This document shows, one piece after another, positions 50,387 to 57,127 of a stretch of 58,916 nt of DNA. A program made the position numbers and the translations under genes. Below the pieces are notes generated by a model, which saw only the letters and a list, made by a program, of their open reading frames with translations, was not told the DNA's origin and searched no databases. Numbering within the stretch: the stretch's first letter is position 1; each line of letters opens with the position of its first letter. This DNA is from Neisseria sp. (GTDB taxonomy: Bacteria > Pseudomonadota > Gammaproteobacteria > Burkholderiales > Neisseriaceae), in the NCBI RefSeq assembly GCF_030523955.1, contig NZ_JAUNHL010000009.1, forward strand, positions 1 through 58,916. Direction: 5' to 3'.

Positions 50387-50444
50387 AGCCTGTCTGAAAA
50401 CCGGTTTGCGTATTTGGGCGAAGCTAAAAGTTTTCAGACAGGCA
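50387..50444. terminator. DUS-variant hairpin between acuI and nrtD-like gene
   Basis: A one-mismatch copy (AGCCTGTCTGAA, 50387-50398) and an exact copy (50433-50444) form a 14-bp stem (GCCTGTCTGAAAAC) with a loop of about 28 bases between convergent genes. Confidence 0.6.
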
Positions 50445-50497: not shown

Positions 50498-51352
50498 TTA
50501 GATACTCCATGCATCGTGATTAAAATTAACAATAGTTGGTTGAGACGGGCGTTCGCTGCTTTGTTGCAATGCTTTGCTGCGGTGGACCAGAAAATCCAGT
50601 AGATGGTTGCGGATTTTATAATACTGGTGATGGTGGTGGATATTGTCACGGTGACGGGGCTTTGGAATGGTATTTTCCAAAATTTCCGCTAAAAAAGCGT
50701 GCGGGCCGTTGCTCATGAGAAAGATACGGTCGGCCAGCAAAATCGCTTCATCTATATCGTGGGTAATCATAAACACGGTTTGATGGGTTTCTTCGACAAT
50801 ATTGACCAATTCGTCTTGAATCACGCCCCGGGTCAGGGCATCCAAAGCACCGAAAGGCTCATCCATCAGCAAGAGTTCAGGCTGAGTAGAAAAGGCACGC
50901 GCAATGCCGACACGCTGTTTCATTCCGCCGGATAGTTGGCTGGGCTTTTTGTCTTTAACTTTGGCTAAGCCGACCATGTCGAGATAGAAATCGATTTTCT
51001 GATGTAATTCTTCGGCCTCAATGGCGGGCGTTTTGGCTTTAAGGGCAAAGCCGATATTTTCGCCAACGGTCAACCAAGGTAAAAGGGCATGGCTTTGGAA
51101 CACCACACCGCGCTCCAAGCCCGGTTTGACGACAGGTTTTCCGTGCATAACGATGCTACCGGAGCTGGCTTGTTCCAAACCGGCCAAAGCATTCAGAATG
51201 GTGGACTTTCCGCAGCCGGAGTGGCCGATTAGGCAGATAAATTCGTTTTTACGGATATCGAAGTTGACATTCTCAAAAACATTTTCGCCATCGCCATAGC
51301 GTTTAGTGAGATTGTCGACTTGAATTAAAGTTGTGACGTTATTATTCAACAT
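50498..51352 (-). CDS. ABC importer ATP-binding protein (NrtD/CmpD-like)
   Basis: The 284-residue ATPase has Walker [10 protein letters not shown] (about 43-51), signature LSGGMKQR, Walker [13 protein letters not shown] and the C-terminal [16 protein letters not shown] segment typical of NrtD/CmpD, the nitrate and bicarbonate importers. Histidines cluster just before this segment (HHHHQ). It overlaps the permease gene by 11 bases, so the two are coupled. It is the last gene of a five-gene operon. The substrate cannot be read from an ATPase sequence. Confidence 0.85.
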
Positions 51353-52217
51353 AGCTCACCTTTTTTTGCAAAATGCCAAACAGCATATCTAAAATCATGC
51401 CTACCAAGCCAATTAACAGAACGGCGAACATCACATTGGCAAGCGATAAATTGTTCCACTGATTCCAAACGAAATAGCCTATACCGGTTCCGCCAACCAA
51501 CATTTCGGCGGCGACAATCACCAACCAGGCAATCCCCATGGAAATGCGCATGCCGGTAACGATGGTGGGTGCGGCAGCCGGAATAACGATTTTGGCGGCG
51601 GTTTTCAGAGGAGAGAATTCCAGTGTTTTGGCAACGTTACGCCATTCGCGCCGAACCGATGCCACGCCGAAAGCAGTATTGGTCAGCATGGGCCAAATTG
51701 AGCAAATAAAAATCACAAAAATACTGGAGGCATTGGAGTCTTTAATGGTGTAGAGCGCAATAGGCATCCATGCTAACGGTGAAATCGGCTTCAGAATCTG
51801 TACAAACGGCATGGCGGCATTGCCCAGTACCGGCGACATACCGATCAGATAACCCAACGGAATGGCCACCAGCATCGCCAGTGCAAATCCTAATAACACC
51901 CGACCGATAGAATAGCCCAGCTGGATGCCGATACCTTTATCATTTAAGCCGTTATCATAAAACGGATTGGATAAATGCTTGATGGCGGTTTGAGCGAAAT
52001 CGGTCGGTGAAGGGAATTCGCTTTTTTGGCTGGATACAACTGCGCCGGGTTGGGTGAATTCGGGAATATCTCCCATGAGGATGCTGTATTCCAGTTTGAC
52101 CGGATCGGTCGGTGCATGGATTTGTTTGGGTAAGGTGGCAGCTTGCCATATGCCCAAAGTCGCCAGCACAATCAGCAAAGAGAGTAGATAGCCTTTGGTT
52201 TTAGTGGTTAATTTCAT
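51342..52217 (-). CDS. ABC importer permease (NrtB-like)
   Basis: The 291-residue inner-membrane permease has an N-terminal helix (about 9-28), a periplasmic stretch (about 30-95) and five to six further helices with the EAA-type loop [30 protein letters not shown]. It belongs to the nitrate/taurine/sulfonate permease family and is closest to NrtB in context. Start ATG 52215-52217 has AGGA upstream. It lies 16 bases after the binding-protein gene. Confidence 0.87.
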
Positions 52218-52233
52218 TATATTTTCCTAAGCC

Positions 52234-53625
52234 TTAAGCCTTTTTACCAATGGCAAATGAATTGAGGTACGCATCGGGGCGTTGGGCATCGAATGATTTG
52301 CCCATCACAGTAATACCCGGTTCTTTTTCGTTGAAGCGGTAGCCCATTTCGCGCATCTGCTTTTTGGCATCGGTTAACATAAATACTTGATTGGCGATGT
52401 CTTGATAATTGACATTGCCTTTAAGATAGCCCCAGCGTTTCATTTGTGTCAGCATCCATACGGCTACCGAATGCCACGGCATCACGTCAAAGCCCATGCG
52501 GTCGGGAAAGTCTTGGATATTGCCCGCACCGTCCGCAAACCGCCCCATAATGGATTGGCGCAACACCAGCTCGGGCTGGTTGAGATAGTTGGCCGGTGCG
52601 AGCAGTTTGGATAAATCTTTACGGATATTGGGATCGTTAGCCATAACGTTGGCTTTGATAATGGCGCGGTACATGGCTAAAAAAGTTTGCGGATATTCGT
52701 TGATAAACGCTTGCGAGGTGCCAAATGAACAGCATGGATGCCCATTCCAAATATCGCGGGAGAGGGTGTGAATATAACCTGCTTTATCCCAAACGGCCCG
52801 TTGGTTAAACGGTTCAGGGCCGAAAAAACCATCGATATTGCCGGCTTTCAGATTGGCAATCATATCCGGGGGCGTGGTCAAACGCAGTTTGACGTCTTTA
52901 TCGGGATCAATGCCATGCTCTGCTAAGAAATAACGCAGCAGGTAATTGTGAATGGAGTGTTCAAACGGAATGGCAAAAGTCATGCCTTTCCAATTTTTGG
53001 GATCTCGGTTGTCTTGATGTTTGAGTGCCATAACCAAGGCTTGGCCGTTGGTGTTTTGAATGGCGGCGACTTTCATATCTTGCTTGGCAGATCCCAGGCC
53101 TAAGTTGATGGCAAGCGGCATGGGGGCTAAGAAATGGGTAGCATCCAGCTCGCGATTCATCATTTGGTCGCGCACCAATGCCCAACCGGCACGCTTGTGC
53201 AGGTTGGCTTTAATACCTTGTTCTTCATAATAGCCCAAAGGGTCGGCCATAATCAGCGGCGTAGAGCATAAAATCGGTAAAAAACCAATATCGACACTCT
53301 TTTTTTCGGGTTTCAGCAGGGTAATGGCAGATGCTTCTTGCAACATGGCTAGCGGTAATACACTGGTGATGGCAGCCACGGCAGTACTTTTACCAACTGC
53401 TCTTAAAAAGGCACGGCGGGTGGGATCGTGTGGAAAAAGTGCTTTTACAGCCGCAGCCTCAATCATATCGGTGGCCGTATGCTCAACACGACTATTGTCT
53501 TGTACACCGGTGAAACGTTCATCCAGCTGCACGCTCTGATTGCATTCATGTTGGCTGCGGTGTTTGCCGCAGCTGCAGCCTAAATTCAACTGCTTATCTT
53601 CAAAAGGGCGGAAAATATTGGGCAT
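52234..53625 (-). CDS. ABC importer substrate-binding protein, Tat-exported (NrtA/CmpA-like)
   Basis: The 463-residue protein has the NrtA/CmpA binding fold (about 105-455), with PILCSTPLIMADPLGYYEEQGI and FGPEPFNQRAVW. A twin-arginine signal lies unusually late: R70-R71 in DPTRRAFLRAVGKS, then a hydrophobic run to about 95. Before it is a 65-residue N-terminal region with C17, C19, H22, H26 and C28, which could bind metal in the cytoplasm before export or regulate the signal. It is probably periplasmic. The ligand (nitrate, bicarbonate or another small anion) is not determined. It starts 24 bases after the rubredoxin-reductase gene. Confidence 0.85.
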   Translation of the reverse strand: MPNIFRPFEDKQLNLGCSCGKHRSQHECNQSVQLDERFTGVQDNSRVEHTATDMIEAAAVKALFPHDPTRRAFLRAVGKSTAVAAITSVLPLAMLQEASAITLLKPEKKSVDIGFLPILCSTPLIMADPLGYYEEQGIKANLHKRAGWALVRDQMMNRELDATHFLAPMPLAINLGLGSAKQDMKVAAIQNTNGQALVMALKHQDNRDPKNWKGMTFAIPFEHSIHNYLLRYFLAEHGIDPDKDVKLRLTTPPDMIANLKAGNIDGFFGPEPFNQRAVWDKAGYIHTLSRDIWNGHPCCSFGTSQAFINEYPQTFLAMYRAIIKANVMANDPNIRKDLSKLLAPANYLNQPELVLRQSIMGRFADGAGNIQDFPDRMGFDVMPWHSVAVWMLTQMKRWGYLKGNVNYQDIANQVFMLTDAKKQMREMGYRFNEKEPGITVMGKSFDAQRPDAYLNSFAIGKKA

Positions 53626-53649
53626 AATTGATAGGTTTTATTCGTTGGG

Positions 53650-55026
53650 TTAATGTTTTAGTTCGATTTTGGCCGTAGTTTTGCCTTGCTGTTTTTGAAT
53701 CAACAACAAGCGTTGGGCACTGTCTTCGCATACTTGCCACGGTTGTGCTTTATCGACCTTACCGGTTACGGAAACGTTAATCGATTTAGTTTTCAGACGG
53801 ATAAGCGGCGGACTGTGAATATAGCCCTTATGCTCCAGTCCGACGATGCGGTGGGCGATGGCTTCGGCTTGCTCGCGCAACGGTGCGACAAAGCGGCAGG
53901 CTTGCCCGCCGATGGCAATACAGTCGCCCAATGCAAATACATCGGGATGGGAAGTTTGTAAGGTACGCTCGTCTACGGCAATGCCTTGTTGGGAGTAATC
54001 CAGCCCGGCACGTTTAGGTAAACGCTCGTTGAGGGTTAAGCCGGTACTGGCGACAATTTCGTCGGCTATAAAACATTCGTCATTAAGTTGGATACGGTAT
54101 TGGCCGTTGCTTAGTGCGGAGACTTTTTGCAGGTGTGTATTACCGAGATAGCGGATACCTGTATGCTCCAGAGCCTGTTTCAGCCGTTCTCCGGCGATGT
54201 CGGGCAAAATTTCTGCCAAAGGCAGTGCTTCGCGGTTGATTAAGGTAACGTGATGGCCCGCTTTGGCGATGTCTTCGGCCAGCTCTACGCCAATCATGCC
54301 TGCTCCGACGATGGCAATGTGTTGGTTCGCTCGTGCGGCTAATTTGGCTTGTAAATCGGCAAACATATCGACATGATTGATCCGCCAGACACAATCAGGC
54401 GGCAAGGATGCCGGCAGAGCCGGTGCCGCGCCCAGCGCCAAAATCAAATGACGATAACCGAAATCGCCACGGGTAGTGCGTACTTGCCGTTTGTTGGTGT
54501 CGATGCGTGTTACGAAAGTGTGGGCGATCAGCCCGATATGCAGTTGTTGCGCCGATGATACCGCTGATTGGGAAATAAGTTGGTCGGGTGTCTTGTTTTG
54601 GCTGATGGCCACCGATAGTTGCGGTTTCATATACCGGTTGCCACTGTCGGCAGTAATCAGCGTAACGGGTAATTGTTTGTCTAAAGTGCGCAAGGCTTCG
54701 ATTACCGTCCAGCCGGCCGTGCCCCCGCCGATGACCACCACGCCGTCATTATCGGCGCAAGGGTTGAAAATCGGTTTGACAACCAGTTCATTACGGCAGA
54801 CGTAAGGTTCGAAATCGCGCTTGGTTACGCCGCACAATGGGCATTCCCAATCATCGGGGATGTCTTCAAAGCGGGTACCGGCAGGTAAACCGCCATCCGG
54901 ATCACCCAGTTGTTCGTCATAAATCCAACCGCAAGCACGGCATAAAAAGCGTTTCCAATCACCGCGGCCATCGGTGGGATTGCAGTCTGCATCCATATTG
55001 ACGGAAGTTAATAAGGGATTGCTCAT
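53650..55026 (-). CDS. Rubredoxin - FAD/NAD(P) reductase fusion
   Basis: The 458-residue protein begins with a rubredoxin domain (about 26-76): C29, C32 in CRACGWIYD and C62, C65 in CPLCG. It continues with a pyridine-nucleotide disulfide-reductase-type flavoprotein (98-450) with GGGTAGW for [23 protein letters not shown] for NAD(P)H and VFALGDC. It should pass electrons from NAD(P)H through FAD to iron, then to a partner oxidase. The likely partner is the neighbouring flavoenzyme (stop 10 bases upstream of this ATG). Start ATG 55024-55026 has AAGGAG upstream. Confidence 0.9.
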
Positions 55027-55036
55027 CACCGCTCCT

Positions 55037-56209
55037 TTATCGTGGCGATACGTCGGACAGTAATTGGTGCGACAAGTAGCGCAAGTGCTTAATCGCCGGC
55101 GTAACAATCGCTACAAAATGTGCTTCACGGATGCGGCGTTGCGGCGCAGCACTCATCAGGTAGCCTCTTGCGCCCTGATGTAATAAAGATGCTTGGGTGG
55201 CATTCAGCGACAGTGTTGCGCCTTGGATGCGCACATCCAACACATCCAAGAAAAAGTCTTTGTGTGTTTCAAAAGGTGTTTGCGCCAGGCTTAATGTTTG
55301 GGCAACCAAGTCATCCAATGCTTCTTGCAGGCCGCCTGCTTGGTCTTCTAAGAATTGGTTAACATGCCCCAGCTGGTTTTCTACTGCTATGATGTCGTTA
55401 ATCGCACCTTGAATAATGCCGGCACCAATGCCCAATTGCATTAATACGAACGCGCCCCGAATCCTTTGGATAAAAGGCGCGGCCGGGTCGGCGATAAGGG
55501 TGTTGTGAGGAACAAAATAATCGTTAAGTTCGATTTGCCAAGTGCTGGAACCTTCCATTCCGCTAAACGTTGGGCAGGGATTGAGCTTCCATTGGCCTTT
55601 ACGTTCTTCGTCAAACGACAATAAAAAGAAAATATTTTTTTCAACAGCCCTGTCTGCCTCTACGCTGGCAATCGCACCGCAGTATTGATCGGGTGCGATA
55701 TGGCTGATCCACGGCAAAGTGCCCGATACGGTATAACCGCCGTCTACTTTGTTTGCGCGTAGAATCATTGATTCGATATTGGCAAAAGTTTTCATTGGGT
55801 TGGACAAGGCGGTACCGCCGAAGCTGTGTCCGAGCATATGGCCGGGTAAAATGCGGTTGGCCAGTTCGGTATTATCGGATTGGTCGAGATATAAAGCACA
55901 TACTTGATGACACCATGATAGAAATCCGGTCGTACCGCATACTTCGCCGATTTTGGCAGTAGACAAAATGGCATCGCCCAAACGGTTTCCTTGGCTGTTG
56001 AGATGAGTAGAAAATGCGCCCAACCTAGCCAGCTCACTCATTTCTTTGATCGGGTAGTAACCTTTATCAATTGCAATCGGGTCAAGTAAGGTGTGGGCAG
56101 CTTTACTGATATTGTCGAAAAAATCCGGCTGGTTGCACCATTGTGTAATGGTAGGAAGCGGCTGGTTCGGCGCCGGGGTATCGTGATAGTAGGTGCTGAA
56201 TTGATTCAT
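55037..56209 (-). CDS. Acyl-CoA-dehydrogenase-fold flavoprotein of unknown substrate
   Basis: The 390-residue protein matches the acyl-CoA dehydrogenase superfamily: an N-terminal helical part, a middle beta domain ([16 protein letters not shown], about 160-175) and a C-terminal helical domain with [24 protein letters not shown]. The ending lacks the usual GT-EI-R motif of true dehydrogenases. The family also contains flavin monooxygenases and nitroalkane oxidases. I chose the ATG at 56207-56209 with AGGA upstream. It is the first gene of the operon with the rubredoxin-reductase and NrtABD-like importer. The function is unknown. Confidence 0.82.
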
Positions 56210-56270
56210 AATCATCCTATGAACATGTAAGAGTGTGTTCAATGAATTTTGGATAGCAAAGCAGGGCTTT

Positions 56271-56578: not shown

Positions 56579-57127
56579 TTAAGGTGCGTAAGCTTGTAAT
56601 TCAGGGTTGATATCGTTTTGAGCGACATTGTTGGCATAATTACATAAGGTGGCCAATGCTACGCCCATTACTATATCTAATACATTTTGATCGTTGTAAC
56701 CTGCGGCTTTGACAGCTTGCAGTTCTTGATCAGATACTTTTCCGCGCTGATCGATTAATTGCATGGTGAATTGGGCCAATGCCTGATATTTTTCATTTTC
56801 TTCGATACGGGTGCGGCTGCGTAATGCGTTGAGCACGTTGTCCGGCATATGCAGCTTCAGTTTGCCGAGCTTGGTATGGCCGGCAACACAGAAATCACAG
56901 CCGTTGTGGGCAGCGGCGGTAATTTGAACCACTTCGATTTCTTCTGCAGTCAGGCTGTTGCTGCCGTTGAGTTTGCCGACTTCTTGATACATCGCCAAGG
57001 CTTGGGGCGAATTAGCCAATACACCGATTAAGTTGGGAATGAAGCCATTGTTTTTTTGAACCGTTTCCATGCGTTCTTTGGCTTGTTCCGGAGCAGATTC
57101 AATAGAGTGTACGGTTAAACGTGCCAT
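56579..57127 (-). CDS. AhpD-like carboxymuconolactone decarboxylase family protein
   Basis: The 182-residue helical protein has the redox CxxC in GCDFCVAGHT (about 75-84), with the following histidine, as in AhpD-type peroxidase partners. It may act as a small thiol peroxidase or reductase. It is upstream of the flavoprotein operon on the same strand, but more than 300 bases and two repeats separate them. Start ATG 57125-57127. The true substrate is unknown. Confidence 0.85.
   Translation of the reverse strand: MARLTVHSIESAPEQAKERMETVQKNNGFIPNLIGVLANSPQALAMYQEVGKLNGSNSLTAEEIEVVQITAAAHNGCDFCVAGHTKLGKLKLHMPDNVLNALRSRTRIEENEKYQALAQFTMQLIDQRGKVSDQELQAVKAAGYNDQNVLDIVMGVALATLCNYANNVAQNDINPELQAYAP

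Follow-up and report, generated by a model that had tools for sequence, protein, structure and literature searches.

An operon of Neisseria sp. joining an anion importer to a rubredoxin-linked flavoprotein: a candidate system for pseudohalide oxidation

Two enzymatic routes of thiocyanate breakdown, via thiocyanate hydrolase and via thiocyanate dehydrogenase, are described in the available sections of PMC5328954, according to which heterotrophs of several genera use thiocyanate as nitrogen source. For cyanate, the cynFABDS cluster of Pseudomonas pseudoalcaligenes CECT5344 comprises a sigma-54 Fis-type regulator, the CynABD importer and cyanase; mutation showed the contribution of CynABD to cyanate uptake, and CynF is a sigma-54-dependent regulator needed for expression (PMC6627978, available part). 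Here, we address an operon of five minus-strand genes from Neisseria sp. (assembly GCF_030523955.1), located in contig NZ_JAUNHL010000009.1, whose whole analysed stretch of 58,916 nucleotides is referred to below as the window. The earlier note on this DNA, made from the letters alone, had described an acyl-CoA dehydrogenase (ACD)-fold protein, a rubredoxin–rubredoxin reductase fusion and a full importer in one operon with gaps of 10, 24 and 16 bases and one 11-base overlap; both the gene types and the arrangement are confirmed. We tentatively propose that the operon combines a pseudohalide importer with a rubredoxin-fed flavoenzyme which would oxidise a pseudohalide, most likely thiocyanate, to cyanate.

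According to this scheme, the importer would bring in a small pseudohalide anion, while electrons would pass from NADH through the FAD reductase and rubredoxin to the ACD-fold flavoprotein, and the latter would oxidise thiocyanate at sulfur to give cyanate, with release of a sulfur unit. The cyanate would in many relatives be further converted to ammonia and CO2 by cyanase, sulfur would leave via a single-cysteine OsmC protein and rhodanese (in some via persulfide dioxygenase and a sulfite exporter), and a NifA-like sigma-54 activator would control the pathway. Copies of the window and of Moraxella would represent its stripped form, with an AhpD-like thiol protein occupying the place of OsmC in the window and its nearest relatives. 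The choice of substrate follows from the family context: linkage to cyanase suggests cyanate as the product, sulfur genes accompanying ACD but not cyanase suggest a sulfur-containing substrate, and an anion importer suggests a charged one, so that thiocyanate fits in all three respects. Reduction of thiocyanate to cyanide was considered and set aside, NADH being probably too weak a donor by our own estimate from formation energies.

The gene neighbourhood was followed by tblastn in 83 distinct loci, namely 80 of 150 confirmed loci kept from a scan of named genomes plus L021, L022, L023 and L025 (84 in sum, L022 and L040 being one place). Many of them end at contig ends, hence neighbour counts are lower bounds; L043 and L044 carry an identical ACD stretch in different records, and the counts given below for the ACD tree, for cysteine alignments (rubredoxin, OsmC, AhpD) and for sigma-54 sites include duplicate loci. 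Rubredoxin is found near ACD in 81 loci and the reductase in 79, the four loci lacking the latter being L066 and L106 at contig ends, L025 with a separate rubredoxin and L023 with neither. This supports the idea that the redox pair serves the flavoenzyme, and the linkage for which the earlier note had suggested a neighbourhood search holds also for a binding protein of either type (54 of 83). Next in frequency are OsmC (67), the sigma-54 activator (57), cyanase (40) and rhodanese (36), followed by persulfide dioxygenase (8), AhpD (7) and TauE (6). AhpD and OsmC never occur together in the 83 loci, and nine loci, eight of them from Moraxella, have neither. Checked against family models, the example cyanase scores well above cut-off and OsmC, Rhodanese and TauE are confirmed in Pfam, while alignment of the metallo-beta-lactamase-fold neighbour to Blh covers the dioxygenase half of the latter (342.9 bits against a cut-off of 625), and the activator is NifA-like, below the NifA cut-off. 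Peroxidase members of the OsmC family have two cysteines. A single conserved cysteine is present in all 83 aligned OsmC homologues (e.g., L021:10998-11537), which would suit sulfur transfer; CxxC is kept in 16 of 16 aligned AhpD-like proteins. One strain of Malikia spinosa carries two copies of the cluster (L051 and L056), of which one is accompanied by OsmC, the type-1 importer and cyanase, and the other by AhpD and the type-2 importer, cyanase being absent from its vicinity.

Association with cyanase was evaluated independently in an even sample of the class (369 genomes), where a genome was counted as a carrier if ACD matched at E 1e-30 or below; this sample and the named loci have no 300-base ACD stretch in common. 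Cyanase is present in 12 of 14 carriers and in 38 of 355 non-carriers (Fisher p 8e-10, uncorrected for relatedness), the carriers including the window genome (G000) and one weak match (G382, 123 bits), which are precisely the two without cyanase. The 12 positive carriers span 10 families, three of them sharing a genus, and in 10 of 12 ACD and cyanase share a contig, at most about 10.5 kb apart. OsmC, the activator and the importer are found in all 12 regions (on two contigs for G243 and G300), and rhodanese in 4. Among 20 control cyanase loci from genomes without ACD, none had OsmC, rhodanese, persulfide dioxygenase, TauE or the second importer type, indicating that sulfur genes go with ACD rather than with cyanase, although rhodanese and dioxygenase were searched with one query each, so that further members may have escaped detection in either set.

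The window flavoprotein is only 12–19% identical to acyl-CoA dehydrogenases and group D flavin monooxygenases of the same fold. The HsaA model matches it at E 0.002 only, the fold being compatible with a group D flavin monooxygenase, and its best NCBIfam match, 3-sulfinopropanoyl-CoA desulfinase of the ACD fold, is weak (23.4 bits versus a cut-off of 600). When the alignment with butyryl-CoA dehydrogenase is prolonged manually beyond its end, an invariant Thr370 appears to fall at the usual position of the dehydrogenase glutamate. The reductase gene unites a rubredoxin domain (PF00301) with an NAD/FAD domain (PF07992), as expected for rubredoxin reductase; the fusion scores below the equivalog of NorW flavorubredoxin reductase (251.6, cut-off 392), and the four rubredoxin cysteines are kept in 94 of 94 aligned homologues. 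Since the reductase is of the NADH-linked type, its partner may be considered as an oxygenase, receiving electrons from the reductase and probably activating O2.

The earlier note doubted nitrate as the cargo of the importer, there being no nitrate reductase genes next to it, and this doubt is supported by the binding protein as well as by the cyanase linkage. Permease and ATPase satisfy the NCBIfam nitrate models, and the core of the binding protein aligns with nitrate and bicarbonate binding domains, where the stretch GHPGK or GQPKK is replaced by GHPCC here. Basic residues of the nitrate site in NrtA are K269 and H196 (PMC8786288, available part). The window protein retains the SxHN stretch; in alignment to the NrtC/CmpC domains, their PGK/PKK stretch reads PCC in 23 of 23 aligned homologues, and C298-C299 are invariant in the same number. 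Among type-1 binding proteins of ACD loci (duplicates and L136, a locus without ACD, being left out), 50 of 51 carry H[PA]CC, the sole exception being a distant protein with HPEK (L133), and so do 19 of 19 of type 2, the latter importer being SsuA/Sao-like, below cut-off. HPCC was also found in all five type-1 proteins whose genes immediately precede those of permease, ATPase and cyanase in ACD-free genomes (one locus, L153, has two distant binding proteins of the PEK type 6–9 kb from cyanase), and in none of 30 loci of the best NMT1_2 proteins from 185 genomes, a comparison set biased toward nitrate-like proteins. Thus, the motif points to an importer of the cyanate or pseudohalide type. As a separate observation, the RRAFLR stretch, read by eye, resembles a twin-arginine translocation (TAT)-type signal and is preceded by a CxCGxH-type cysteine motif with C17 and C19 invariant in 23 of 23 aligned homologues; a conserved metal-type motif within a signal-peptide region is odd.

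Involvement of sigma-54 was assessed by sites with at least 10 of 12 matches against expectation from shuffled sequences. Such sites precede OsmC in 36 of 82 cases (0.8 expected), and 31 of 51 type-1 binding proteins have one as well (0.5 expected); no such site was seen ahead of the type-2 binding protein (0 of 19), of AhpD (0 of 7) or of the window genes tested. No OsmC or sigma-54 regulator is located near the window operon, an AhpD-like gene being found instead. In the quick ACD tree without bootstrap (118 rows, 114 different, support as Shimodaira–Hasegawa-like approximate likelihood ratio, SH-aLRT) L029 and L030 are the first to join the window (99); the node above unites them with the whole Moraxella group (12 rows, 99), and this clade is sister to the cyanase-linked Neisseria copies L021, L022 and L040 (15 rows, 99). 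A long-branch warning applies to L135, L133, L131, L023, L124, L025, L048, L132, L125, L041, L020, L095 and two more, of which L041 and L048 adjoin the clade of the window. The simplest reading is that the window operon descended from a cyanase-linked, sigma-54-controlled cluster and lost both this control and cyanase.

The closest relative found comes from a Moraxella metagenome bin (L029), being 78–79% identical in ACD, 87% in the binding protein and 90% in the permease; gene order including the AhpD gene is identical in the window, L029, L030 and L031. The best Neisseria loci (L021, L022/L040) reach 55%, 64% and 71–73%, respectively, and the closest ACD of 35 same-genus genomes 54–56%, taking into account that the named scan may have left out records very near the window genome. 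The DNA-uptake word TGCCTGTCTGAA, which we take to mark N. wadsworthii-like species, occurs in 44 copies in the window and in none between 50445 and 57271, a gap which weakly hints at transfer. Apart from that, the ACD of Neisseria loci L005–L020, L027 and L028 is more distant and is accompanied by AhpD and, in most cases, by a separate rubredoxin; as L024 repeats L005 and L026 repeats L013, the 20 Neisseria loci of the 40% group correspond to 18 distinct ones, 4 of which have the type-2 importer.

Several observations weigh against thiocyanate oxidation to cyanate as the role of the operon. The cyanase search was negative for the window genome, for all 11 Moraxella-group genomes and for 44 of 46 Neisseria genomes, yet an ACD relative is present in 26 of 35 same-genus genomes other than G000; the genomes G002 and G013 have a second ACD cluster that is cyanase-linked. 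Since regulator, sigma-54 promoter, OsmC and cyanase were not found for the window and Moraxella copies, the benefit to the window organism could lie in sulfur supply or in detoxification instead of nitrogen. None of 15 regions of the class sample showed persulfide dioxygenase or TauE. The importer was not seen in 14 of the 18 distinct Neisseria loci of the 40% group, most of which extend no more than about 1.5 kb to the side, and in 5 of 11 Moraxella-group loci the ACD–reductase pair is followed by some 8.5 kb free of an importer; the importer, placed by the earlier note in one pathway with the redox pair, is thus an optional member of the set. Plain cyanate clusters likewise make use of the type-1 importer, so its cargo may be cyanate, and the structure model of the binding protein is too poor for pocket comparison (predicted local distance difference test, pLDDT, 57).

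The main rival explanation, which we regard as unlikely, is that the flavoenzyme acts as a cyanide monooxygenase (HCN + O2 + NADH giving cyanate, then cyanase), with rhodanese and the sulfite exporter serving the sulfur side of cyanide detoxification. Such an enzyme has been proposed but not demonstrated (PMC11049912, available part); linkage to cyanase and rhodanese would be explained by it, and the importer-free Moraxella loci (L032, L035, L037, L038 and L039) fit it better than they fit thiocyanate, because HCN diffuses. On the same ground HCN needs no importer, yet a binding protein lies near 54 of 83 loci and the window operon retains the importer though it is without cyanase; persulfide dioxygenase is likewise left unexplained. 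The five importer-free loci also show no OsmC, AhpD or cyanase in the available stretch. Pairing of ACD with an AhpD-like CxxC protein in the window, in three Moraxella-group loci and in 18 distinct Neisseria loci, along with the lack of a cyanase match in the AhpD-paired ACD genomes searched except G002 and G013, favours another explanation, quite improbable in our estimate: a stress system destroying oxidised thiocyanate species or peroxides on mucosa, where AhpD would be the true partner, the importer would scavenge related anions and cyanase linkage elsewhere would reflect a different use. Against it, the window clade nests among cyanase-linked relatives, whose sigma-54 control points to nutrition.

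Similarly improbable is sulfur scavenging from an organic sulfur anion, e.g., sulfonate, by ACD as a desulfonating monooxygenase; it agrees with the SsuA/Sao-like second importer type (below cut-off) and with the weak desulfinase match, leaving unexplained both cyanase in 12 of 14 carriers and the HPCC motif common with cyanase-linked importers. A plain nitrate or nitrite importer merely sharing the operon with an unrelated redox pair is highly improbable. Permease and ATPase do pass the nitrate models, narG is present in the window genome, cross-transport of cyanate and nitrite by such importers was reported (PMC6627978, available part), and in M. catarrhalis genes annotated as nrtABCD together with a rubredoxin family gene are upregulated at 26 C (PMC3699543, available part), which we infer to be homologues of the window operon. 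Nevertheless, HPCC replaces the nitrate-type PE or GK stretch, and linkage to ACD and cyanase is not accounted for; the nitrate reading was set aside on account of this motif and the gene neighbours. No nitrate reductase lies beside the operon, PF00384 matches of the window genome being on three other contigs, with narG on one of these. The doubt of the earlier note about nitrate is thus supported; that note named no substrate, and the sulfonates, nitriles and nitroalkanes it listed for growth tests appear less favoured than a pseudohalide in view of the family context (cyanase, rhodanese, OsmC or AhpD, sigma-54 control).

Features of the window operon and its surroundings are collected in Table 1. 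The inverted pair of uptake words following the operon is a possible terminator. Promoter-like and terminator-like sites of the operon (13 versus 11.3 and 14 versus 8.4 expected, respectively, standard deviation 3.4 for the latter) are not decisive, and Rfam gave no match in the window at gathering scores.

Table 1. Coordinates of the operon genes and adjacent features in the window
Feature	Position	Strand	Remarks
ACD-fold flavoprotein, proposed pseudohalide oxygenase	55037..56209	-	predicted ACD fold
ACD gene, possible alternative start	TTG at 56242	-	
Rubredoxin–rubredoxin reductase fusion, proposed electron donor	53650..55026	-	PF00301 + PF07992, NorW-like
Substrate-binding protein, NrtA/CynA-like, HPCC motif	52234..53625	-	NMT1_2
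ABC (ATP-binding cassette) importer permease	51342..52217	-	TIGR01183 above cut-off
ABC importer ATPase	50498..51352	-	TIGR01184 above cut-off
AhpD-like protein with CxxC, upstream partner	56579..57127	-	position is that of OsmC in relatives
Inverted pair of DNA-uptake words 3' of operon	50388..50444	-	TGCCTGTCTGAA at 50433-50444; with a partner arm

Thiocyanate is abundant in saliva and airway fluid, so its handling could matter to mucosal commensals, and the annotation as nitrate importer in Moraxella and Neisseria may give the wrong substrate. A cluster so tightly linked to cyanase is a direct candidate for the unassigned thiocyanate or cyanide monooxygenase step. It could equally well turn out or fail to be a third biological route of thiocyanate breaking, flavin- and rubredoxin-dependent (or the postulated cyanide monooxygenase), spread across Alpha-, Beta- and Gammaproteobacteria with a cyanase-free version in mucosal Moraxella and Neisseria. 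The cyanate part is already known, while the ACD–rubredoxin part was not found described in the literature searched, leaving a fair chance of a new enzymatic route; neither an assay of the ACD enzyme nor a paper on the cluster was found in the open-access literature, subscription journals being mostly outside the scope.

Compared with described systems, the importer has a binding protein, permease and ATPase homologous to those of the NrtABCD nitrate and CmpABCD bicarbonate importers, differing by HPCC at the PE/GK position, by gene neighbours and by a single ATPase of 284 amino acids devoid of the binding-protein-like domain of NrtC/CmpC; with regard to the CynABD cyanate importer, its binding protein is of the type found directly before cyanase. 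The flavoprotein has the ACD fold in common with acyl-CoA dehydrogenases and group D flavin monooxygenases, whose usual partner is the electron-transfer flavoprotein (ETF) or a flavin reductase. Unlike them, its genetic partner is rubredoxin reductase, and the catalytic glutamate of the dehydrogenases is apparently replaced by threonine. The regulator, importer and cyanase of cynFABDS are all present in many relatives of the window operon, whereas the window copy is without cyanase and regulator, and the available part of PMC6627978 mentions no ACD, rubredoxin reductase, OsmC or rhodanese there (the likeness is one of gene content as described). Finally, in the cyanate pathway of Thioalkalivibrio, thiocyanate dehydrogenase is a thiocyanate:cytochrome c oxidoreductase, while the operon considered here combines an ACD-fold protein with rubredoxin reductase of the NADH-linked type.

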